From Betaproteobacteria bacterium (GTDB taxonomy: Bacteria; Pseudomonadota; Gammaproteobacteria; Burkholderiales; SG8-41): a stretch of DNA of 59,960 bases. The stretch spans positions 1 through 59,960 of the forward strand of contig JANYDY010000083.1 of NCBI GenBank assembly GCA_025363435.1. Direction: 5' to 3'. Every line of letters begins with the position of its first letter. The stretch's first letter is position 1. The notes under the pieces are model-generated. The model had not been told where the DNA came from. It made no database searches and was given only the letters and a program-made list of their open reading frames with translations. Both the position numbers and the translations under genes were made by a program. Below are positions 4,610 to 21,350 of this stretch, one piece after another.

Positions 4610-4912
4610 ATGAAAATTTCAACGCCCATATTCAAAGCCGCCGCGGCACTGGCCATGGCATCGGCATGCGGCACCGCCCATGCCGCCGTCACCTGCGAAC
4701 AACTCGCCGAAATCGCCTTCGTCACCGAACGCCTGCGCGACAACGGCACGCCGCTCGCCGATGTGATGGGCGAGGCCGACCGTCTCGAGGCGTCGAAGAA
4801 ATTTACCGGCGCTGAAATTGCCGGCATACGCGAAGCCATCGATAACTCGTTCAAGCGCATCCGCACTTCCAACGAGACGCTGCTCGACTGCCGTGCCAAG
4901 CTGAAAAAATAA
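4610..4912 (+). CDS. small exported protein of unknown function
   Basis: A 100-residue protein with a Sec signal peptide (MKISTPIFKAAAALAMASA, cleavage near AHAA at residue 26). The mature part of about 74 residues is helical and charged, with only two cysteines (in VTCEQL and LLDCRAK, near the two ends), which could form a disulfide holding a helical hairpin. No domain was recognised. It follows tctA after 39 bp and precedes the lipoprotein gene at 4933 by 20 bp, so it may be transcribed with the exported-protein cluster that follows. Confidence 0.75.
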   Translation: MKISTPIFKAAAALAMASACGTAHAAVTCEQLAEIAFVTERLRDNGTPLADVMGEADRLEASKKFTGAEIAGIREAIDNSFKRIRTSNETLLDCRAKLKK

Positions 4913-4932
4913 TGTTGTTAGAGGAGGGGAGT

Positions 4933-5655
4933 ATGACGTTCCGCAATCTGTACGGTTTTTTTGCAATTGTTGCTTTTACCGTTCTGGCAGGTTGCGCGGC
5001 GCCGGGGCCCGATTATCAGGCGCTGCTGGCGGCGCCGGACCGCAGCGAAGCCGACCGCAACATCGACCAGCGCCGCAGTCCGCTCGATCTGCTCAGGTTT
5101 TACGATGCGCGGCCGGGCATGGTCGTCGCTGATATTGGCGCCTTCGGCGGCTACAATGTCGAACTGCTGGCGCGTGCGGTCGGCGCCTCCGGCAAGGTCT
5201 ACGCGCACAATCCGCCGGCGGCGGCCGGCCGTCTCGCCGAGCGCATGAAGTCACCTGCGATGCAAAACGTGATTGCCTCGAACCGTCCGTTCGACGACCC
5301 GCTGCCGCCGGAACTGCGCAATCTCGATCTGGTGGTGTTCAACTTCGCCTATCACGACACCGTCAACATGGACGTCGACCGCGCGAAAATGAACCGCGCG
5401 ATATTCACCGCGCTCAAAAGCGGCGGCACCTACGTGCTTGCCGATCATTCGGGACGGGCGGGTAGCGGCATCGGCGAAACAAAAACGCTGCACCGCATCG
5501 AAGAGGCCGCATTGCGCAAAGAGATCGAGGCCGCCGGATTCAGATTGGCGGCCGAGGGGGCGTTTCTGCGCAATCCGCAGGACCCGCGCACCGCGCCGTC
5601 GGGCAAGAATCCCGTGCCCAACGACGAGTTCGTGCTCAAGTTCGTAAAACCATAG
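4933..5655 (+). CDS. methyltransferase-like lipoprotein
   Basis: A 240-residue protein that starts with a lipoprotein signal peptide; the lipobox LAGC places the lipidated cysteine at residue 21. The remainder resembles a Rossmann-fold class I methyltransferase of the COG4798 type: GMVVADIGAFGGYNVELLA is a motif-I-like loop and GGTYVLADHSGRAGSG is typical of that group. The glycine motif is shifted compared with canonical DxGxGxG, so SAM binding is uncertain. GAGGAGGGG lies just upstream of the ATG; an ATG 21 bp earlier would place extra residues before the signal peptide. It opens a cluster of exported methyltransferase-like proteins. Confidence 0.85.
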   Translation: MTFRNLYGFFAIVAFTVLAGCAAPGPDYQALLAAPDRSEADRNIDQRRSPLDLLRFYDARPGMVVADIGAFGGYNVELLARAVGASGKVYAHNPPAAAGRLAERMKSPAMQNVIASNRPFDDPLPPELRNLDLVVFNFAYHDTVNMDVDRAKMNRAIFTALKSGGTYVLADHSGRAGSGIGETKTLHRIEEAALRKEIEAAGFRLAAEGAFLRNPQDPRTAPSGKNPVPNDEFVLKFVKP

Positions 5656-5682: not shown

Positions 5683-6534
5683 ATGAATCGTTATTGGAAA
5701 ATCATCACTGTCGCGTTGGCATCACTGTTTCTGGCCTCATGCGCCGGCAATCCGCCGGAGGTCACGCGCAGCGGCAAGATCGAAGTGCAGTGGCTGGGCA
5801 ACGCGGCGATGAAAATCACCACGGTCAGCGGCAAGGTGATTCTGATTGATCCGTTTTTGAGCGCGAATCCGAAAACGCCGGCGCAGTATAAAAATCTCGA
5901 CGCGCTGGGCAAGATCGATCTGGTTCTGGTCACGCACGGCCACGGCGACCACATCGGCGTCAACGGCGACAAGGAGTTCGACTCGATCGTGCTGTCGAAA
6001 AAGCACAACGCGCCGCTCTACGGGCCGGCCGGCATGAACCAGGCGCTGATCACCATGGGCCTCCTGTCGCCAGCGTTGTCGCAGCGCTTCGGCAAGGGCG
6101 GCAGCTTCACGCCGTTTCCGGGCGTGCGCATCACCGCCACGCATGCCGAGCACAGCTCCGAGCTGCTCGTGGTTAACGCTGCAGGCAAGGGCGAAAGCCA
6201 CATCGGCGGCGAGCCGGTCGGCTTCATCATTGAGCTTGAAAACGGCTTCCGGATCTATCACATGGGCGACACCGGCCTGTTTGGCGACATGCGCATGATC
6301 GGCGAATACTACCGCCCCGATCTGATCATGATCCCAATCGGCGGGCACTACGTGATGGATCCGAAGGACGCCGCCTATGCGACGACCGCGCTGATCAAGC
6401 CAAAATTCGCGATGCCGATGCACTACGCAACCAATCAGTACCTGAAGGGCACGCCGGAGGAGTACATCACGGCGGTGGGGACGTTCCCGACGCGCATCAT
6501 CAACATCAATCCCGGCGACAAGGTCAGCTTCTGA
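5683..6534 (+). CDS. metallo-beta-lactamase-fold lipoprotein (UPF0173/UlaG-like hydrolase)
   Basis: A 283-residue predicted lipoprotein (lipobox LASC, Cys20) with a metallo-beta-lactamase fold. The metal motif HxHxDH is intact at residues 85-90 (THGHGDHIG), followed by the further ligands TATHAEHS, YHMGDTG and PMHYAT expected for the UPF0173/UlaG-like branch. LGNAAMKI at the N-terminus of the domain is also typical. It lies 27 bp after the methyltransferase-like lipoprotein with a GGGAGG ribosome-binding site, so the two probably form an operon. The substrate is unknown; an envelope hydrolase acting on an ester or phosphoester is the natural guess. Confidence 0.88.
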   Translation: MNRYWKIITVALASLFLASCAGNPPEVTRSGKIEVQWLGNAAMKITTVSGKVILIDPFLSANPKTPAQYKNLDALGKIDLVLVTHGHGDHIGVNGDKEFDSIVLSKKHNAPLYGPAGMNQALITMGLLSPALSQRFGKGGSFTPFPGVRITATHAEHSSELLVVNAAGKGESHIGGEPVGFIIELENGFRIYHMGDTGLFGDMRMIGEYYRPDLIMIPIGGHYVMDPKDAAYATTALIKPKFAMPMHYATNQYLKGTPEEYITAVGTFPTRIININPGDKVSF

Positions 6535-6632: not shown

Positions 6633-7511
6633 ATGAAGCTCAGTTTTTCAAAAGCCGCGGCCTTGAGCGCGGCATTATTTATTGCTACGCCGGTTCCGGC
6701 GCAGGACATTGACAAGCTGAAGACCGGCGGGCCTTACGTGCCGACACCGCAGGTGGTGGTCGACCAGATGCTCAAGCTCGGCGCCGTCACCGAGAAGGAC
6801 TACGTCATCGACCTCGGTTCCGGCGACGGCGTGATCGTGCTGACCGCCGCGCGCACGTACAAGGCCGGCGGCATGGGCATCGATATCGATCCGGATCTGG
6901 TGCGGCAGTCGAACGCCAGCGCGCAGAAATTCGGTGTTGCCGACCGCGTGCGCTTCGTGCAACTCGACGTCTTCAAGGCTGATATGAGCAAGGCCTCGGT
7001 GCTCACGCTCTACCTGTTGCCGGGCATGATGATGAATCTGCGCACCAAAATTTTCACCGAGCTCAAGCCCGGCGTGCGCGTGGTTTCGCACGACTATCAC
7101 TTCGGCGAGTGGTCGCCCGACGATACGATCAGTTTCGACGTGCCTGAAAAGGAAATGGTTACCGGCGTGCCGCGCGCCACGCTCTACAAGTGGATCGTGC
7201 CGGCGAAGGTTGCCGGCAAGTGGGAGATCAAGGTCGTCGGTGGCGAGACTTATGAAGTGTCGCTGCGCCAGCGTTTTCAGAACATCACCGAATCGTCGGC
7301 CGCTGCCAACGGCCGTTTCATACGGCCGCAGGCGGTGGCGTTGAAAGGCGGCGACATCAGCTTCACGCTGCCCGACGGCAAAAATATTTCGCGTTTCAGC
7401 GGCCGCGTCAATGGCGAGACCATGGAGGGCATGGTTGAACTGCCCGGCGGCAAGGGCACGGCGAAGTGGACGGCGGCGCGGACGGCCGCGGCTGCGGTGG
7501 TGATGGAGTAA
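6633..7511 (+). CDS. exported class I SAM-dependent methyltransferase, paralogue A
   Basis: A 292-residue protein with a Sec signal peptide ending near VPAQ (residue 24), then the family entry motif PYVPTPQVVVDQML, motif I DLGSGDG at 60-66 and the acidic ribose-binding position in GMGIDIDP. It also has LTLYLLPGMMMNLR and SHDYHFGEWSPDD, which recur in the five related proteins downstream. The last ~100 residues (from YKWIVPAKVAGKWEI) look like a separate beta-rich domain shared by all six. The ATG at 6633 follows GGGGA; starts at 6618 and 6621 only lengthen the signal peptide. It is separated from the main array by the convergent gene at 7572. Confidence 0.9.
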   Translation: MKLSFSKAAALSAALFIATPVPAQDIDKLKTGGPYVPTPQVVVDQMLKLGAVTEKDYVIDLGSGDGVIVLTAARTYKAGGMGIDIDPDLVRQSNASAQKFGVADRVRFVQLDVFKADMSKASVLTLYLLPGMMMNLRTKIFTELKPGVRVVSHDYHFGEWSPDDTISFDVPEKEMVTGVPRATLYKWIVPAKVAGKWEIKVVGGETYEVSLRQRFQNITESSAAANGRFIRPQAVALKGGDISFTLPDGKNISRFSGRVNGETMEGMVELPGGKGTAKWTAARTAAAAVVME

Positions 7512-7526
7512 CGATTGTAGTTGTAG

Positions 7527-7553
7527 CCCGGAAGGAGCGCAGCGTATTCCGGG
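7527..7553. repeat. palindromic repeat with AGCGCAGCG loop, between convergent genes
   Basis: CCCGGAA and TTCCGGG form a 7-bp stem around a 13-nt loop containing AGCGCAGCG. It occupies the 60-bp gap between two converging genes (stops at 7511 and 7572), a place where it could serve as a bidirectional transcript end. The loop core recurs in the two hairpins at 40018 and 40076. Confidence 0.7.
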
Positions 7554-7571
7554 GAGGCCTGTACTACAAAA

Positions 7572-9185
7572 TCAATTGACGAAAAACGCCGCCGGCAGTG
7601 CTTCGACTACATATCGGCGGTTGACCAGCTGGCTCGATGCCATATCCGCCGCGACCGGATTGTTGGCGTCGGTGATGACGCGGCCGTCTCGCATCAACTG
7701 CTGATCGAGCGGGCGCGGTTCGCGCAGCATGGCGCCGAGCACGTCGAAGTGGCGTGAGGGCACGTGCGAGATGTCGGCGCCGGCGGGTGCGGCCAACGGC
7801 TGCGCGCCGGCGACGACGAAGCTGTTCACATGCGTGGCGACGCCGTAATCGGGGCGGTAGAGTACGATGTAAGGCAGTTCGGTGCGTAGTGTCGTCAGGA
7901 AATGCGCGTAAGGCCGCGGCTGGTCCGTATCAGCGAAGGTGTTGAACACGGCAACGCCGCCGGCAGCGAGGCAGTGCTTCAAGTCGCGGAAAATGTCGCG
8001 CGTGATCAGATAGTCGGGCACGCCGTCGCCGTGGAACAGATCGACCACCACCACGTCGTAGCTGCCGTCACAGCTACGCAGAAAGGTGCGTGCGTCGGCC
8101 TGCACGGTCTTGACTTTGGTGGTGTCGTAACCGAACAGTTCGCGCGCCGCGCGCAACGCCGCCGGATCGATCTCGACCGCGGTGACTTCCATGCCGCCTG
8201 CGGCGAGCCGCATCGGCAGCATGCCGGCGCCGTTGCCGAGCACCAGCACTTTCTTCAGGCCGGGCCGGTACGACTGCGCGAGCGCTTCGAGCGCATAGGT
8301 GTAGAGTGACATCGACTGGTTGTGCGCGCCGACCATGTTCTGCACGAGGCCGTCCTGAAAGTACATGCGGCTGAAGGCCTCGCCGTCGCGCGGCCCGCTT
8401 TTCAGGATCTTGATGGTGCCGAACATCGAGCGGTAGATTGCTTCGGGCGCCCACGTCGTGTTGTTGTAGGCGGCCGGCCACATGCGGCCGATGTAGAAGT
8501 CGGAGGCGGCGAGCATTCCGAGCGACGCGATTAATGCGACCACGGTGGTGGTGACGAGTCGTTTACGTTCGGCGAATCTGACCGATGAGCGAACGATGAT
8601 CGCCAACGGCAGTGCCGCCAGCACAATCGCCACCAGCAGCGTCGAGACGAAATTGCTCAGGTAGGGAATCATGCCGAATGCGGTGACGATGACGCCGGCG
8701 ACCGAGCCGATGGTGCTGACGAAAAACACGCCGCCTGAACCGCCATCGGCGGCTGCGCCTTTACTCGCGGATTGTTTGAGCAGCAGCGCCACCAGCAGCG
8801 GATTCATCGCCGAGGTGGCGAACAACGGTACGAACAGCAGCGCGATGCAGGCGATGAAGGCGCCGGCGATCAGATCCATGCGCGCGAGCTGGTAGAACAG
8901 GTACGGGTAAAGCAGGCAGGCGGCAACGATGGCGATCGATGCGACTGCCGGCATCAGTGCAAACAGGTAGGCGAGTTTGTCTGCGGCGAGCGCATTGCCC
9001 CTGCGGCCGGCGGCGAGGCGGCCGCCCCACCAGTAACCGAGCGCCAGCGACACCAGCGTGATCGAGAGGATGCCGCTCCAGATATAGAGGCTGACGCCGA
9101 AGTAGGGCGTCATGATGCGCGAGGCCAGGAGTTCCAGCGCGAGGATGGCGCCGCCCGTCGTGAAGATGATCGCCTGCAGCAGCAT
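7572..9185 (-). CDS. membrane-anchored spermidine synthase-like protein
   Basis: A 537-residue protein with two parts: an N-terminal half of about seven hydrophobic segments (residues ~1-240) that resembles the membrane domain of fused spermidine synthases, and a C-terminal SpeE-like Rossmann domain. The latter shows KVLVLGNGAGMLPMRLA, AVEIDPAALRAARELF and YDVVVVDLFHGDGVPDYL, the aminopropyltransferase-like motifs. The start chosen (9185) opens directly into the first membrane segment; the longer open frame to 9302 adds 39 residues with no family look. It is divergent from the methyltransferase array at 9326. Whether it makes polyamines or another aminopropyl or methyl product is not determinable. 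Confidence 0.88.
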   Translation of the reverse strand: MLLQAIIFTTGGAILALELLASRIMTPYFGVSLYIWSGILSITLVSLALGYWWGGRLAAGRRGNALAADKLAYLFALMPAVASIAIVAACLLYPYLFYQLARMDLIAGAFIACIALLFVPLFATSAMNPLLVALLLKQSASKGAAADGGSGGVFFVSTIGSVAGVIVTAFGMIPYLSNFVSTLLVAIVLAALPLAIIVRSSVRFAERKRLVTTTVVALIASLGMLAASDFYIGRMWPAAYNNTTWAPEAIYRSMFGTIKILKSGPRDGEAFSRMYFQDGLVQNMVGAHNQSMSLYTYALEALAQSYRPGLKKVLVLGNGAGMLPMRLAAGGMEVTAVEIDPAALRAARELFGYDTTKVKTVQADARTFLRSCDGSYDVVVVDLFHGDGVPDYLITRDIFRDLKHCLAAGGVAVFNTFADTDQPRPYAHFLTTLRTELPYIVLYRPDYGVATHVNSFVVAGAQPLAAPAGADISHVPSRHFDVLGAMLREPRPLDQQLMRDGRVITDANNPVAADMASSQLVNRRYVVEALPAAFFVN

Positions 9186-9203
9186 CGTGAGTAGCCCGTC
9201 GGT

Positions 9204-9209
9204 TATAAT
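9204..9209 (+). promoter_or_regulatory. possible -10 element ahead of the methyltransferase operon
   Basis: A perfect TATAAT lies 117 bp before the ATG at 9326, inside the gap between divergent genes. No clear -35 hexamer is seen at 16-18 bp. On the opposite strand the overlapping TATAAC lies about 17 bp from the start codon of the divergent gene, so the site could serve either direction. Tentative. Confidence 0.3.
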
Positions 9210-9325
9210 CGCTGCGTCCGCGCCGTTGCAGCAAAGGTTGATCGGCCCGCGGAATTTACCAGACTTTTTCCGCACTTGTAACGGCGTCGCGCCGCTCATC
9301 ATAAGCGCATGCCGGAGGAGGAGAT

Positions 9326-10231
9326 ATGTTGCGATTCATACCGCGTGTTTTTGCCTGTTTGGCGCTGGGCAGCGTTTCGTTGATGACCATCGCGGCCGAG
9401 CCGACCGTGCCTTATGTGCCGACGCCGCAGGAAGTCGTCGACAAAATGCTCGATATGGCGAAAGTTACGCCCAACGATTATCTGATCGATCTGGGTTCCG
9501 GCGACGGCCGTATTGTCGTCACCGCTGCGAAGAAATTCGGCGCGCGCGGTTTCGGCGTCGATCTGAACCCGGTGCGCATCAGGGAGGCGGTCGAAAACGC
9601 GCTGAAGAACGGCGTCAGCGACCGCGCCGAGTTTTTTCAGCGCAATCTGTTCGAAACCGATCTTGGCGGTGCCAGCGTGATTACGATGTATCTGCTGCCG
9701 CGCGTGAACATGGAATTGCGGCCGAAGCTGCTTAACCTGCAGCCGGGCACACGCATCGTTTCGCACGACTTCGACATGGACGACTGGAAACCCGAAGAAA
9801 CCGTGCATATGAACGTCAAGGAAAAATACGGTAGCGCCGGCGGCAGCAGCTCGGTGTATTTCTGGATTGTGCCGGCGAAGGTTGCGGGTGCCTGGGAGTG
9901 GCAGTTAACGGTCGGCGGCAAGGTGCAAACTTACGAACTGGCACTGGAGCAGAAATTCCAGATGCTGAGTGGTACGCTGCGCATCAACGGCGGTCTGTTC
10001 AAACTCGGCGAGGCGAAATTGCGCGGCGATCAAATCAGTTTCAGCGCGTCTGCCGAGATCAATGGTGTTACTACGAAGCAGACTTTCAGCGGGCGCGTCT
10101 CGGGCGATAAAATTTTCGGCAGTGTTGCGCTGGCGGGAACGCGGGCGCAAAGCCAGCTTGAATGGAGCGCATCGCGTGGCGCCAAAGCTGCTGCGCTTGT
10201 GACAAAACCAGTGCTGGCGGCGGTGCATTGA
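9326..10231 (+). CDS. exported class I SAM-dependent methyltransferase, paralogue B
   Basis: A 301-residue protein with a signal peptide (MLRFIPRVFACLALGSVSLM, cleavage near IAA at residue 24), the motif PYVPTPQEVVDKML, motif I DLGSGDG at 55-61, AKKFGARGFGVDLNP and ITMYLLPRVNMELRP. SHDFDMDDWKPEE precedes the beta-rich C-terminal domain, which opens with YFWIVPAKVAGAWEW. A strong ribosome-binding site (GGAGGAGGAG) precedes the ATG, marking the head of the five-gene array. The next gene starts 1 bp after the stop. The family is known as class I methyltransferase by fold, but no substrate has been assigned to my knowledge. Confidence 0.9.
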   Translation: MLRFIPRVFACLALGSVSLMTIAAEPTVPYVPTPQEVVDKMLDMAKVTPNDYLIDLGSGDGRIVVTAAKKFGARGFGVDLNPVRIREAVENALKNGVSDRAEFFQRNLFETDLGGASVITMYLLPRVNMELRPKLLNLQPGTRIVSHDFDMDDWKPEETVHMNVKEKYGSAGGSSSVYFWIVPAKVAGAWEWQLTVGGKVQTYELALEQKFQMLSGTLRINGGLFKLGEAKLRGDQISFSASAEINGVTTKQTFSGRVSGDKIFGSVALAGTRAQSQLEWSASRGAKAAALVTKPVLAAVH

Positions 10232-10232
10232 T

Positions 10233-11150
10233 ATGCTGAATTTTTGCAGGGCAGCGGTATTGCTGGTGGCCGCAGGCGCCGCCCTGGCGCAGGATTTCGG
10301 CGATACGCCCTATGTGCAGACGCCAATGAACGTGGTCGAGCGCATGCTGCAGATGGCGAAGGTTACATCGCGCGACTATGTGATCGATCTGGGTTCCGGC
10401 GACGGTCGCATGGTGATTACGGCGGCGAAGAAATACGGCGCGCGCGGATTCGGTGTCGATCTTGACCGCCGGCTGGTCGAACAAGCCAACCGCACGGCAG
10501 CGAAAGCGGGGCTCGCCGACCGCGCGGCGTTCTACGAACGCGATCTTTACGAAACTGATTTGAGCGCGGCGAGCGTAATGACCATATACCTGCTGCCCGA
10601 GGTGAATCTGATGGTGAGGCCGAAGTTGCTGGCGACCTTGAAGCCCGGCACACGCATCGTCACCCACGATTACGATATGGGCGAATGGCAGCCCGACGAG
10701 CAGATCGTCATGGACGCACCGGACAAGCCGGTCGGTCGCGACAAGAAGAGCAAAATTTTCTACTGGGTGATACCCGCCAATGCCGCCGGCAAGTGGCGTT
10801 GGGAGTTGCCGCTTGCCGGCAAGCCCGCGATATTTGAGATGGCGGTCGCGCAGAATTTTCAGATCATCAGCGGCAGTGCAAGCGTGGATGGGCGCACGCT
10901 AACCCTGAGCAAGGCGCGCCTGAGCGGTGAAAACGTGGCGTTCGCGCTGGCCGATGCGAGCGACGGCGCGCGTTATGAATTTTCGGGCCGTATCGTCGGT
11001 AACAACATCAGTGGTAGCGTGGCCGTGCGGGGTGCGACAGCGCAGCGCCAGCTCGAATGGGACGCGGCGCGCACCGAACTCGGCACGCCGGCGCACGCAT
11101 TGCTCAAGCGGCCGACCATGCAGGAGCTGCAGGAAAAATTGCAGCCATGA
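10233..11150 (+). CDS. exported class I SAM-dependent methyltransferase, paralogue C
   Basis: A 305-residue protein with a short signal peptide ending ALAQ (residue 20), then PYVQTPMNVVERML, motif I DLGSGDG at 52-58, AKKYGARGFGVDLDR, MTIYLLPEVNLMVRP and THDYDMGEWQPDE. The C-terminal domain has YWVIPANAAGKWRWEL and ends with a longer, helical tail than its relatives (PTMQELQEKLQP). Its start lies 1 bp after the preceding stop, and its own stop overlaps the next start (ATGA), so translation is probably coupled. It is nearest in organisation to paralogue B. Confidence 0.9.
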   Translation: MLNFCRAAVLLVAAGAALAQDFGDTPYVQTPMNVVERMLQMAKVTSRDYVIDLGSGDGRMVITAAKKYGARGFGVDLDRRLVEQANRTAAKAGLADRAAFYERDLYETDLSAASVMTIYLLPEVNLMVRPKLLATLKPGTRIVTHDYDMGEWQPDEQIVMDAPDKPVGRDKKSKIFYWVIPANAAGKWRWELPLAGKPAIFEMAVAQNFQIISGSASVDGRTLTLSKARLSGENVAFALADASDGARYEFSGRIVGNNISGSVAVRGATAQRQLEWDAARTELGTPAHALLKRPTMQELQEKLQP

Positions 11151-11998
11151 TCGCAGCCGCACTGCGGCGGGCATTGATTGGTTTGGTGTGCATCGCTGCG
11201 CTGCCGGTGGCGCGCGCACAATTCAGTTACGACGTGCCGTACGTGCCGACGCCGCTGGTGGTGGTCGAAGAAATGCTGCGTCTTGCCGAAGTCACGCGCG
11301 ACGATTTTGTCATCGATCTCGGCTCCGGCGACGGCCGCGTGGTGATCGCCGCGGTGAGTAAATTCGGCGCGCGCGGCATCGGTGTCGATCTCGACCCGGA
11401 GCGCATACTCGAAAGCGATTACAACGCCAGCGTTGCCGGCGTCAGCGACCGCGTGGCTTTCCACCGCCAGGACCTGTTCAAGTTCGAAATCAGCCGCGCC
11501 AGCGTCATCACCATGTATCTGCTGCCGTCGGTCAACATCAAATTGCGGCCGCGCCTACTGTCCGAGCTGAAGCCGGGCACACGCATCGTTTCCCACGACT
11601 TCGATATGGAAGACTGGAAGCCCGACGCGCGATCGACGGTGCGCAAGAATGTGTTTCTGTGGATCGTGCCGGCGAAGGTCGAGGGCCGCTGGCATGCTGA
11701 TCTTGCGCTGCCCAACGGCGCGCGCAGTTACGACATCGAGATCAAGCAGAAATTTCAGGAAATCGACGGTCTGGTGCGTTACGATAAAAAAGTCGCCGGC
11801 CTGTGGAACGCCAGTCTGCGCGGCGACCGTGTGCAGTTCACCATTGTGGATGACGGCGGCGCGCTCGATACCAATCTATATTTCGACGGTCGTGTCTCCG
11901 ATGACGTGATCGAAGGCGTGATCCTGCGCGGCATCGGTGCCGACCGGCAGAAAATCAGCTGGCGCGCCACGCGCGTTGCCGGGGTGGCGGCGCAATGA
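11147..11998 (+). CDS. exported class I SAM-dependent methyltransferase, paralogue D
   Basis: A 283-residue protein. The start at 11147 overlaps the previous stop (ATGA) and gives a proper signal peptide (cleavage near VARA, residue 24); the longer open frame from 11057 only reads through the previous gene. It carries PYVPTPLVVVEEML, motif I DLGSGDG at 57-63, GARGIGVDLDPERI, ITMYLLPSVNIKLRP and SHDFDMEDWKPDA. The linker between the methyltransferase and C-terminal domains is shorter than in B, C and F. Its stop overlaps the next start by ATGA. Confidence 0.9.
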   Translation: MIAAALRRALIGLVCIAALPVARAQFSYDVPYVPTPLVVVEEMLRLAEVTRDDFVIDLGSGDGRVVIAAVSKFGARGIGVDLDPERILESDYNASVAGVSDRVAFHRQDLFKFEISRASVITMYLLPSVNIKLRPRLLSELKPGTRIVSHDFDMEDWKPDARSTVRKNVFLWIVPAKVEGRWHADLALPNGARSYDIEIKQKFQEIDGLVRYDKKVAGLWNASLRGDRVQFTIVDDGGALDTNLYFDGRVSDDVIEGVILRGIGADRQKISWRATRVAGVAAQ

Positions 11999-12858
11999 TC
12001 AGGCGGTATGCTGCGCTGCTGGTGGCCATGCTGTTACCTGTCGTAGCGGTAGCGCAACCGAATACCCCGGACGTACCCTATGTGACAACGCCGTGGAATG
12101 TGGTCGAGACCATGCTCGAGATGGCGCAGGTGACGGCCGGCGACAATCTGATCGATCTCGGCTCGGGTGACGGTCGTATTGTCATCGAAGCGGTAAAAAA
12201 ACGCGGCGCACGCGGCACCGGCATCGAACTTAATCCGCATCTGGTGAAAATCGCGCTCGAAGAAGCAAAGAGGCAGGGCGTCACCGAGAAGGCGAAATTC
12301 CTCGAGGGCAATCTGTTCGACTTCGATCTGCGCGGCGCCAGTGTGCTGACCATGTATCTGTTTCCGCAAATCAACATCCGTCTGCGGCCGCGCCTGTTCG
12401 AACAGCTGAAACCCGGCACGCGGGTGGTCTCGCACGACTTTCACATGGACGAGTGGCGGCCGGATATGCAGCGCGAGGTGCCGGTGCCGGGCAAATCATA
12501 CGGCCCGCCGAAGAGCACGCTCTATATGTGGGTGATGCCGGTCAACGCGGCCGGCGTCTGGCGCTGGCGCCTGCCGTTGAACAATACGCCGGTGGCGTTT
12601 GAGGCGACTGTCATGCAGCGCTTTCAGAAACCGGAAATTACAGTAACTGCCGATGGCGTGAAAGCGGCGGTCAGCGAGCTGCAATTGCGCGGCGATGAAA
12701 TCCGCTTTCGGCTGCTACACAGCCCGTCGGCGACACTCGAATTCAGCGCCCGCATCAGTGGCGACGAGGCGGCGGGCACGGTCAAACGCGCCGGCGAGGA
12801 CGCTGCAACGGATTGGAAGGCAACCCGCACCGAGCGTGGCAAAATACGCCTTGATTGA
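11995..12858 (+). CDS. exported class I SAM-dependent methyltransferase, paralogue E
   Basis: A 287-residue protein with a signal peptide ending AVAQ (residue 21), then PYVTTPWNVVETML, motif I DLGSGDG at 54-60 and GARGTGIELNPHLV, where the usual aspartate is glutamate. It continues with LTMYLFPQINIRLRP and SHDFHMDEWRPDM. The C-terminal domain opens with YMWVMPVNAAGVWRWRL. It is the most divergent member of the five-gene run in its core motifs, but no catalytic-fold residue appears lost. It overlaps the previous gene by 4 bp and is followed by a 28-bp gap. Confidence 0.9.
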   Translation: MIRRYAALLVAMLLPVVAVAQPNTPDVPYVTTPWNVVETMLEMAQVTAGDNLIDLGSGDGRIVIEAVKKRGARGTGIELNPHLVKIALEEAKRQGVTEKAKFLEGNLFDFDLRGASVLTMYLFPQINIRLRPRLFEQLKPGTRVVSHDFHMDEWRPDMQREVPVPGKSYGPPKSTLYMWVMPVNAAGVWRWRLPLNNTPVAFEATVMQRFQKPEITVTADGVKAAVSELQLRGDEIRFRLLHSPSATLEFSARISGDEAAGTVKRAGEDAATDWKATRTERGKIRLD

Positions 12859-12886
12859 TTACCGAAACACCTTTCTGGAGAGTGGC

Positions 12887-13786
12887 ATGAAGCAGGTCAA
12901 ATGGTTGTTGCAAGCCGGCGTGGCGTTGGCGCTGATGTTGCCGCTGGCCGCGTGGAGCGCGGAAGAAAAGGAACGCGGCGTCGGCGACGTGGTTTACGTG
13001 CCGACCCCGCAGATCGTTGTCGACGAAATGCTGAAGATGGCGAAAGCGGGCCCGAAAGATTTCATCATTGATCTCGGCTCGGGTGACGGCCGTATGGTGA
13101 TTACGGCAGCGAAAAAATTCGGCGCGCGCGGTTTCGGTGTTGATCTGTCCGACGACCTGCTGCGCGAGGCGAACGCCAACGCCAAAGCCGAAGGGGTTGC
13201 CGACCGCGCGCAGTTCTTCAAGCAGAACCTGTTCGAAACAGATTTGAAACAGGCGACGATAATTTCGACCTATCTGTTGCCGGAAATGAACGAGAAGCTG
13301 CGGCCGAAAATACTCGCCTTGCCGCCGGGCACGCACGTGGTTGCGCACGACTATCACATGGGCGAGTGGCTGCCTGACGAAACCAAAACGCTTTCGGTGC
13401 CGGAGAAACTCGTTGGTACTCCGGGAGTCAGCTATACCTATATGTGGATCGTGCCGGCCAGGGTTGGCGGCCGCTGGCAGTCGGAACTGACGCACAGCGG
13501 CGGCGCGACCGCCATCGAATTCGAGTTTACGCAGACTTTCCAGGTCATCGGTGGCAGCGCCAGAATAGGCGCGCAGGCCATCAAGCTGCCGGATTCGCGT
13601 CTGATCGGCGATCAGATTGCATTCACAGTTTTTGTCAAAGCCGGTGACGCTGCGTCGAAGCATGAATTCCGCGGCACCATAAAAGGCGATGCAATCGACG
13701 GCATGGTTACCGTCGGCAGCAGCAATACGCAGAAGCAGTTGCCGTGGAAAGCCAGAATGGTGGCGCGCGCGGGCGGCGCAAAATGA
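12887..13786 (+). CDS. exported class I SAM-dependent methyltransferase, paralogue F
   Basis: A 299-residue protein; the ATG at 12887 follows CTGGAG and yields a signal peptide with cleavage near AWSA (residue 25). A longer open frame from 12695 overlaps paralogue E out of frame and is discarded. It carries VYVPTPQIVVDEML, motif I DLGSGDG at 62-68, AKKFGARGFGVDLSDDLL, ISTYLLPEMNEKLRP and AHDYHMGEWLPDE. The C-terminal domain begins YMWIVPARVGGRWQ. Its stop overlaps the start of the permease gene (ATGA), linking the methyltransferases with a transporter in one transcript. Confidence 0.9.
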   Translation: MKQVKWLLQAGVALALMLPLAAWSAEEKERGVGDVVYVPTPQIVVDEMLKMAKAGPKDFIIDLGSGDGRMVITAAKKFGARGFGVDLSDDLLREANANAKAEGVADRAQFFKQNLFETDLKQATIISTYLLPEMNEKLRPKILALPPGTHVVAHDYHMGEWLPDETKTLSVPEKLVGTPGVSYTYMWIVPARVGGRWQSELTHSGGATAIEFEFTQTFQVIGGSARIGAQAIKLPDSRLIGDQIAFTVFVKAGDAASKHEFRGTIKGDAIDGMVTVGSSNTQKQLPWKARMVARAGGAK

Positions 13787-19430: not shown

Positions 19431-21350
19431 ATGAACACCGCAACCAAAGAAACAATGGGCTTTCAGGCCGAGGTTACCCAACTGCTCGACCTGATGATTC
19501 ACTCCTTATATAGCAACAAGGAAATCTGCATACGCGAGCTCGTCTCGAACGCATCAGACGCCTGCGACAAGCTGCGCTTTGAGGCGCTGACCAATAAAGA
19601 CCTGTTCGAGAACGATGCCGATCTGAAAATCCGCGTCGGTTTCGACAAAGCGGCGCGCACCATCACGATAGCCGATAACGGCATCGGCATGTCGCGTGAA
19701 GAGGTCATCGCAAATATCGGCACCATCGCCAAATCCGGCACGCGCGAATTTTTCAAGGCGCTGACCGGCGAGCAGGCCAAAGACGCCAATCTGATCGGCC
19801 AGTTCGGCGTGGGTTTCTATTCTGCGTTCATTGTTGCCGACAAGGTCACGTTGACCACACGCCGTGCCGGTGCGTCAGCAGCGGATGCCGTGCGCTGGGA
19901 GTCGGCCGGCGCCGGCGATTTCACCATTGAGCCGTTTGCAAAAACCGCGCGCGGCACCGAGGTCACGCTGCATTTGCGCGACGGCGAAGATGAATTCCTC
20001 GAAGGCGGTCGCCTGCGCAGCATCATCCACAAGTACTCGGATCACATCGTGTTGCCGGTGGTGATGCAGAAACAGGAGTGGGACAAGGATAAGTCGGAAT
20101 TCGTAATCAAGGACGAAGACGAGACCGTCAATCAGGCCAATGCGCTATGGGCGCGCTCGAAAACCGACATTACGCAGGAACAGTACGACGATTTCTATAA
20201 ACACGTCGCCCACGATTTCGAGGCGCCGCTGTGTTATGCGCATGCGCGCGTCGAAGGCAGCAAGGAATACACGCTGTTGTTGTACGTGCCTTCTAAAGCG
20301 CCGTTCGATCTGTTTGACCGCGAGCACCGTCACGGCATCAAGCTGTATGTGCGGCGCGTTTTCATTATGGACGATGCTGATCAGTTGATGCCGAACTATC
20401 TGCGTTTTGTGCGTGGCGTGATTGACTCGAGCGATCTGCCGCTCAACGTCTCGCGTGAGATTTTGCAGCAATCGAAAGACATCGACGCGATCCGCGCCGG
20501 CGCGACGCGGCGCGTGCTTGGCATGATCGAAGAGCTGATCGAAAACGACAAAGAGAAATTCACCAAATTCTGGGGCGAATTCGGCAGCGTTTTCAAAGAG
20601 GGCATCGGCGAAGATGCCGTCAACCGCGAGCGCATTGCAAAAATCTGCCGCTTTGCGTCGACCAAGGCCGATAACAATGTGCAGGAGGTATCGCTGGCCG
20701 AATACATCGCGCGCATGAAGCCGGAACAGGACAAGATCTATTACGTCACCGCCGACAGTTTTGCCGCAGCGAAGAACAGTCCGCACCTTGAGGTGTTCCG
20801 CAAGAAGGGCATCGAAGTGCTGCTGCTGTCAGACCGTATCGACGAGTGGGTGGTGTCGCATCTGCACGAGTTCGAAGGTAAATCGCTGCAGTCGGTGGCC
20901 AAGGGCGAACTTGATCTCGGCAAGCTCGCCAACGAAACCGACAAGCAGGAGCAGGAGAAGGACGCCGGCGAGTACAAGGGACTGGTCGAGAAGATAAAGA
21001 AAGCGCTCGGTGAAGGTGTGAACGATGTGCGCACGACGACGCGGCTGACCGAATCGCCGGCCTGTCTGGTCTCCGAACAATTCGGCATGGGCGGCAATCT
21101 TGAAAGGCTGTTGAAGGCCGCCGGGCAGAAGGTGCCGTCGTCAAAACCGATACTCGAGATCAACCCGCATCATCCGCTGTTGCAGCGCTTGAAATACGAA
21201 GCCGAGGGTCAGCGTTTCGATGACTGGTGTCACGTGCTGTTCGACCAAGCCCTGTTGTCGGAGGGCGGGCAGCTCGAAGATCCGGCGTCGTTCGTCAAAC
21301 GCCTGAATCAGTTGATGCTGGTCCTGGGCGACGGCAAAGCCGCGACTTGA
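19431..21350 (+). CDS. htpG: HSP90-family molecular chaperone HtpG
   Basis: A 639-residue protein, full length for bacterial HSP90. The N-terminal ATPase domain has the expected motifs: [20 protein letters not shown] with the catalytic Glu, [18 protein letters not shown] and [11 protein letters not shown]. The middle domain ([13 protein letters not shown]) and the C-terminal dimerisation domain ([14 protein letters not shown]) follow. HtpG is a cytosolic ATP-dependent chaperone acting late in folding. A sigma-32-type promoter lies just upstream. The gene is divergent from the ABC importer and converges with the cysteine-rich protein gene, with a 3-bp gap between stops. Confidence 0.98.

Follow-up and report, generated by a model that had tools for sequence, protein, structure and literature searches.

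A conserved locus of putatively exported methyltransferase-like proteins as a candidate system for SAM-dependent methylation outside the bacterial cytoplasm

Methylation dependent on S-adenosylmethionine (SAM) is generally taken as a cytosolic process in bacteria. What, then, would be the role of six neighboring methyltransferase genes whose products all appear to carry an export signal? The question is raised by a stretch of 59,960 nucleotides from a Betaproteobacteria bacterium (GCA_025363435.1, contig JANYDY010000083.1, positions 1–59,960, forward strand), here called the window. A preliminary description had placed six paralogs of 283–305 residues at 6633–13786, and open reading frames of the corresponding lengths were found there. 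This range does hold the array; it also contains a gene, here called S, that had gone unnamed, and ends before a permease gene that had been missed, so that neither partner had been connected to the array. With a probability of roughly one half, we consider the locus to be an extracytoplasmic SAM-dependent methylation system, made up of exported copies of the type of aKMT (the archaeal protein-lysine methyltransferase), of S facing the periplasm, and of a permease that would supply SAM. The features are as follows.

6633–7511, plus strand: copy 1, predicted exported aKMT-like methyltransferase with beta domain, 292 amino acids (aa)
7572–9185, minus strand: S, seven-transmembrane (7-TM) protein with a C-terminal spermidine-synthase-like domain, predicted to be periplasmic
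9186–9325, no strand: divergent intergenic region between S and copy 2, with GGAGGAG before the ATG of copy 2
9326–10231, plus strand: copy 2, 301 aa; its mature form was modeled
9878–10192, plus strand: beta-rich C-terminal domain of copy 2 (one such domain per copy)
10233–11150, plus strand: copy 3, 305 aa
11147–11998, plus strand: copy 4, 283 aa, ATGA overlap with copy 3
11995–12858, plus strand: copy 5, 287 aa, ATGA overlap with copy 4
12887–13786, plus strand: copy 6, 299 aa
13783–15138, plus strand: permease of the APC superfamily, LAT-type, 451 aa, its ATG overlapping the stop codon of copy 6 as ATGA

Copies 2–6 are consecutive, with 1 bp between copies 2 and 3, ATGA overlaps at the next two junctions and 28 bp between copies 5 and 6, just as had been described, and S, on the opposite strand, separates them from copy 1. 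The other copies are 38–43% identical to copy 1. The genome contains nine copies altogether, six in the window and three in tandem on another contig (C53; contigs, genomes and loci are designated C, G and L throughout). Arrays of this kind also occur in many uncultured relatives. Pseudogenes were rejected as an explanation: the ratio of nonsynonymous to synonymous substitution rates against orthologs of the same genus was 0.09–0.18 in 10 of 10 comparisons.

Predicted export of the copies and their aKMT-type methyltransferase domain

The N-terminal half of the copies is a class I methyltransferase. For all six, the best NCBIfam match was NF041081 (archaeal protein-lysine N-methyltransferase), with 103.4–134.5 bits, and this model matched 88 of 88 aligned family members, among them the six of the window. 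By sequence, the best relatives of copy 2 with solved structures were 5bxy and the aKMT entries 5fa8, 5fad and 5jwj. An AlphaFold2 model of mature copy 2 (mean predicted local distance difference test score, pLDDT, 93.3) gave the same picture: the top Foldseek ranks were 5bxy and 5fad, both with S-adenosylhomocysteine (SAH), and 5fa8, with SAM, at template-modeling scores (TM-scores) of 0.89–0.93 by target length and 47–50% identity. Across aKMT and a Salinibacter homolog, identity was 46–50% and the TM-score 0.82–0.93; for the aKMT/aKMT4 entries (5fa8, 5fad, 5jwj), the methyltransferase domain showed 46–47% identity and 0.82–0.90 by target length. When the whole models of copy 2 and S were used, only methyltransferase or spermidine-synthase folds were among the matches listed. 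The SAM loop and the H..W motif are common to aKMT and the window copies in alignments. The solved aKMT chains, however, are single domains of ∼160 residues that begin just before YVPTP, whereas the window copies add an export signal, a beta domain and a sixfold array. Plain membership of the aKMT family was therefore rejected, as the NF041081 score is under the cut-off and the leader and C-terminal domain depart from the leaderless single-domain architecture. The best reading of the sequences is that the copies would work like aKMT but outside the cytoplasm.

The cofactor site was compared in 338 relatives (457 domain matches after removal of 61 duplicates, 33 partial matches and the 25 matches of the short loci L019–L038). 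The preliminary description had called it intact in every copy, and so it was: DLGSGDG is present in all six window copies, and the motif-I aspartate, two glycines and the acidic residue after strand 2 are kept in 338/338 relatives. The full set is intact in 332; the six exceptions carry DLGSFDG (one copy each in L084, L086, L091, L092, L098 and L113), and DLGSGNG occurs in eight further rows. Because the collection scan had used motif patterns, the count was repeated without the copies picked by motif search, which gave 259/265. Two other motifs had been described slightly too strictly. The entry motif reads YVPTP in four copies, YVQTP in copy 3 and YVTTP in copy 5, and the HD(Y/F)-(H/D)M-x-(E/D)W motif is present, though its methionine is not found in every copy (copy 1 has HDYHFGEW). 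Among the relatives, the tryptophan of this HD..W motif is kept in 338/338 and the histidine in 314/338. Binding of SAM by the copies is thus supported through conservation and modeled fold, and they would presumably be catalytically active. We take G38 of aKMT4 to be a motif-I glycine. The G38R variant of aKMT4 is described as methyltransferase-deficient in the available part of the source (PMC4639711). As far as the accessible portions of the respective papers go, aKMT is a lysine methyltransferase of broad specificity, and its mitochondrial relatives FAM173A and FAM173B also methylate lysine (PMC9006661, PMC10238732, PMC4639711). FAM173A/B, compared here by description only, are archaeal-KMT-like, with homologs in alpha-proteobacteria (PMC9006661, PMC10238732); they differ in that they appear membrane-anchored with target lysines on the matrix side (PMC10238732).

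Export of the copies from the cytoplasm is likely, judging from their leaders. A home-made rule called a Sec-type leader in 6/6 window copies, in line with what had been predicted. With any upstream start allowed, it called 299 of 334 relatives (229 Sec, 42 Tat-like, 28 lipoprotein; four further rows with truncated sequences were left out) and left 35 uncalled, some of which resemble leaders by eye but were not counted. On controls, the same rule called 2/18 HtpG (its false calls) and 0/4 FAH-hydrolase sequences. When the start was chosen by ribosome-binding site and codon alone, 252 of 318 were called, compared with 29% of shuffled leaders; 20 more rows had no start in range for this choice. 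From the entry motif on, the 338 proteins contain only 42 cysteines in 90,926 residues (0.046%), and 302 of them, as well as the six window copies, contain none; the controls, which are few and varied, gave 0.32% (HtpG), 1.36% (FAH) and 0.14% (ABC ATPase). A single group of orthologs (see below) holds Sec, Tat-like and lipoprotein leaders, and the prediction of export extends to orthologs with leaders of these other types. Among the short relatives of L019–L028, aKMT-like single-domain proteins of ∼200 aa with DLGCGDG in 9/10, visual inspection shows twin-arginine leaders in nine of 10, with RRxFL in six of these. The variety of leaders within one group and the twin-arginine leaders of the single-domain relatives indicate that export itself, and not one route, seems to be kept.

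The second domain is as had been described: in the model of copy 2, the C-terminal ∼100 residues form a beta-rich domain, and each copy has one. Searched alone, as the preliminary description had suggested, this part found no relative among PDB sequences (best E value 0.35) or in Pfam (20 members searched; best E value 0.033). Within the genome of the window, it was detected on the nine copies and nowhere else.

Order of the array and its linkage to S and a permease

A tree of the 338 sequences resolved six groups, each with one window copy, of 58, 52, 40, 56, 34 and 52 members (copies 1–6). Groups were set mechanically, each being the most inclusive clade of a midpoint-rooted FastTree that contains a single window copy (support 0.78–0.96); 46 of the 338 sequences remained ungrouped, and the assignment of the C53 copies to group 2 is loose. 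For the count of gene order and the main counts of linkage, 10 loci repeating others were removed. The group labels then followed the order of the window in 39 of 49 loci with at least three full-length copies, the usual pattern being 1 (S) 2 3 4 [4] [5] 6. Two of the 39, L126 and L132, are trivially ordered, as all three copies bear one label; the 10 remaining loci are L051, which has an extra group 6 copy, and nine with ungrouped copies, mostly large arrays. The array is therefore old and kept, as had been supposed, and recent lineage-specific amplification was rejected: tandem copies are shared across loci as orthologous groups in fixed order. From the same order in 39/49 loci it follows that each copy probably has its own fixed role. 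The earlier idea that growth of the array reflects substrates of graded specificity was not supported in that form; as many as 10–13 tandem copies occur in a few relatives (L113, at G036:C11:418000–437900, L098, L084 and L073). The L113 array is interrupted by TctC-like and other transporter-type genes. A second exported type of triple array, with motifs such as EGKDVIWVPTP and without S or permease, is found in L132 (G000:C53:1–10000) and L126.

Of 52 arrays with at least three copies, 40 have S on the opposite strand, either within the array or next to it. These arrays are not all independent: L113 comprises two clusters, and some contigs share an assembly (for example, L051/L089 and L088/L091). 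In seven of the 12 arrays without S, less than 500 nt of sequence is available on that side; the two L113 clusters were counted as lacking S, which lies just outside the fetched stretch, and real absences are found in L126 and L132, both of the C53 type, and L048. Of 40 arrays with at least 1,500 nt downstream, 30 are followed in the same direction by an APC permease within 96 nt, and in 10 of these it lies at −4 or −7; distances were measured to where the alignment of the permease begins. Ten arrays have no close permease. In L113 and L086 one is found at a greater distance, in L073 and L098 the contig closes with genes of other transporter types, L126 and L132 are again those of the C53 type, and L084, L088 and L096 are also without; the last, L079, is considered below. 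A wider count, with repeated loci kept and room required downstream only, found the permease in 38/48 arrays and 1/24 single-copy loci (L083, cut at the contig start). Neither S nor the permease was found at any of 16 single-copy loci that had enough sequence on both flanks (0/16).

The same association was seen among 250 genomes of the order, in searches scoring at most 9 and 5 candidates per genome. S was present at E ≤ 1e-60 in 19 genomes, 18 of which are among the 20 with at least nine array-type matches; in all 18, the S match lies at most 450 nt from a copy. None of the 32 genomes with one to eight array-type matches had S. Because of this co-occurrence and closeness, S as an unrelated neighbor was rejected.

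S matches NF037959 with 168.9 bits. Its model (pLDDT 89.2) shows seven long helices, followed by a spermidine-synthase-like domain, with spermidine synthases among the Foldseek matches listed. The listed open reading frame reaches 9302. Relatives such as L128, whose frame opens there, begin with the Met at 9185; similarity to L127, the nearest relative, extends beyond this Met in the upstream direction, and S may therefore have a longer form. With the helix borders of the model, the N-terminus and loops 2-3, 4-5 and 6-7 together hold more Lys/Arg than the others in 35 of 35 sequences, although the segment that follows helix 7 contains 1.34 Lys/Arg on average. The loop charges place the N-terminus inside, and the catalytic domain is accordingly predicted to face the periplasm. 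In this domain, C372 and C405 are invariant, a pair that would suit a disulfide. The position after strand 2 is acidic in 35/35, and GxGAG replaces GxG(D/E)G, also in 35/35; for lack of this acidic residue, S as a plain spermidine synthase was rejected.

The acidic residue in GxG(D/E)G serves to tell spermidine synthases from methyltransferases in the available text on NHMT (AN4663), a fungal N-terminal histidine methyltransferase (PMC10349129). NHMT has the same plan of 7 TM helices and a spermidine-synthase-like domain as S and, like S, is without the acidic residue in GxGxG (PMC10349129); the likeness is one of plan and motif, drawn with no NHMT sequence in the comparison. According to the same text, NHMT needs its 7-TM part, resides in the endoplasmic reticulum (ER) and acts on secreted proteins, and the supply of SAM in the ER is raised as a possible limit, with reference to plant Golgi SAM transporters (PMC10349129).

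The permease scored 200 bits with AA_permease_2, which is above the cut-off; its best NCBIfam match, TIGR00911, had 226 bits and is below the cut-off of 701.8. Its relatives with solved structures include 9h76/6f2g, which we take to be BasC-type, and LAT1. It matches these LAT/SLC7-type transporters over nearly the full length, but differs in that the clade found here is linked to methyltransferase genes. Two lineages, 65–83% and 42–50% identical to the permease of the window, occupy the same place, and the window's own genus holds either one (L127 and L128 versus L120). SAM is itself an amino acid, so that a LAT-type exchanger would be a plausible carrier for it; the yeast permeases for SAM and S-methylmethionine belong to the same superfamily. 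Because of the linkage, we infer that SAM is what the permease supplies.

Weighing the possible functions

In the proposed system, copies 1–6 would leave the cytoplasm by Sec (in some orthologs by Tat or as lipoproteins) and work in the periplasm, each on a target of its own, by analogy with aKMT most likely lysines of exported proteins. The beta domain would help to choose or hold the target, S would be a membrane-anchored methyltransferase-like enzyme with its catalytic domain toward the periplasm, and the LAT-type permease would supply SAM, possibly by exchange against SAH or some other amino acid. The export signals, conservation of the cofactor site, fold, gene order, linkage of S and permease, and topology of S are supported computationally. 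The preliminary description had supposed that either SAM or another nucleoside ligand reaches the periplasm, or the fold has been reused for binding. For the former, the linked permease now offers a candidate route, with transport of SAM itself still our inference; the latter is taken up below. A more specific version is tentative and rather doubtful as a whole: in a group of betaproteobacteria, a working periplasmic SAM pool would be fed by a dedicated LAT-type SAM/SAH exchanger, the fixed set of exported aKMT-type enzymes and the 7-TM enzyme would methylate envelope proteins, and such a system would correspond in bacteria to the methylation that takes place in the fungal ER. If true, there would be a new route for modifying the bacterial envelope, as well as a candidate bacterial SAM exporter, and the conserved locus makes SAM action outside the cytoplasm directly testable.

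Several observations weigh against the proposed system. The support is wholly computational, and 73 of 74 record titles of relatives name a metagenome-assembled genome. All six copies score under the 200-bit equivalog cut-off of NF041081. L048 has copies 1–4 without S, and L079 has S but HtpG in place of the permease. Two genomes with at least nine array-type matches, G159 and G197, have no S at the threshold, whereas in G236 a weak S (213 bits) was found but nothing of the array type. When the membrane segments of S were counted by plain hydropathy, 31 of 35 sequences showed seven, three showed six and one showed eight; under this count, the charges of S from L084 point the other way. Clustering of the neighbors of 42 loci yielded no linked target protein. 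The exported single-copy relatives and the C53-type arrays have neither S nor permease and would need another source of SAM, and the LAT-type relatives of the permease bear the names of ordinary amino acid carriers and exchangers. By UniProt BLAST, the 7-TM sequence of NHMT was found only in fungi, according to the part of the paper available (PMC10349129). Neither SAM in the bacterial periplasm is described in the literature searched, as far as its accessible text goes, nor was a matching system found in openly licensed PMC papers, to the same extent, for such a bacterial locus, periplasmic methyltransferases or lysine methylation, or SAM transporters. KmtA and the rickettsial enzymes PKMT1/2, compared by description only, are alike in that lysines of Gram-negative surface (outer-membrane) proteins are methylated; they differ in having a SAM-binding and a dimerization domain, and the term signal peptide is absent from the available text (PMC11784438).

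The rival explanations overlap, and their odds do not sum to 1 with that of the proposed system. The copies may be active exported methyltransferases while the permease carries an ordinary amino acid, with SAM arriving through another carrier, by leakage, or bound to a folded enzyme exported by Tat. This is unlikely overall but has to be taken seriously, given the exported single-copy relatives without permease, the names of the LAT-type relatives, and the Tat leaders on the single-domain relatives, Tat being a route that carries folded proteins. The overlap or short spacing of the permease in 30/40 arrays and the two permease lineages at the same place nevertheless argue for a specific link, and an enzyme that brought its own SAM along could turn over just once. 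It is also conceivable, with a somewhat smaller chance, that the substrate of the exported enzymes is not protein but a small molecule or an envelope polymer, with different compounds served by different copies. Class I methyltransferases change their substrate class easily, and the beta domain is without a known relative in Pfam or among PDB sequences; the nearest characterized relatives, aKMT, FAM173A and FAM173B, however, methylate protein lysine in the accessible descriptions (PMC9006661, PMC10238732).

That the fold has been reused as a periplasmic module for binding or sensing SAM, SAH or another nucleoside, which the permease would take up, appears improbable. An operon that combines a carrier with several paralogous binding proteins would suit scavenging, and each copy has an extra beta domain. 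Conservation, however, goes beyond the SAM loop to the histidine and the invariant tryptophan of HD..W, S brings in a second methyltransferase-like fold, and APC permeases are, to our knowledge, not known to need binding proteins. Least probable, and by some distance a minor candidate, is a cytosolic location, in which the leaders would be membrane anchors or false starts and the enzymes would act, for example, on nascent or membrane proteins. AxA-like sites directly precede the methyltransferase domain, Tat-like and lipoprotein variants exist, and cysteine is nearly absent, all of which speak against it, as do copies 1, 3 and 5, which have no start codon within 14 codons before the entry motif, and copies 4 and 5, which start inside ATGA overlaps. 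On the other hand, the leaders were called by a home-made rule, ATG, GTG or TTG occurs within these 14 codons in 189 of 286 placeable rows (ATG in only 21), and FAM173A/B, with their apparent anchor and matrix-side targets, offer a precedent in the available text (PMC10238732).

Regulatory signals and neighboring genes

No promoter-like match was found by the promoter scan in 9186–9325, and the promoter and terminator scan was near chance (4 versus 2.9 and 12 versus 11.8, respectively). In 1–30000 of the window, no Rfam match reached the gathering threshold, known SAM and SAH riboswitches included. Upstream of copy 1 are two further genes:

4912–5655, plus strand: M, lipoprotein-type methyltransferase-fold protein; the Met at 4933 fits the leader
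5683–6534, plus strand: B, lipoprotein-type metallo-beta-lactamase-fold hydrolase

The cofactor loop of M is degenerate (DIGAFGG, with HN instead of the acidic residue after strand 2), and a relative of M lies upstream of copy 1 in some loci. A link of B to the system is weak. At 19431–21350, downstream of the array, the window encodes HtpG, and in L079 (7816–9757) the HtpG gene immediately follows the array. The Bug-type (TctC) receptor family occurs near 21 of 42 loci, at a median of 4 kb upstream.

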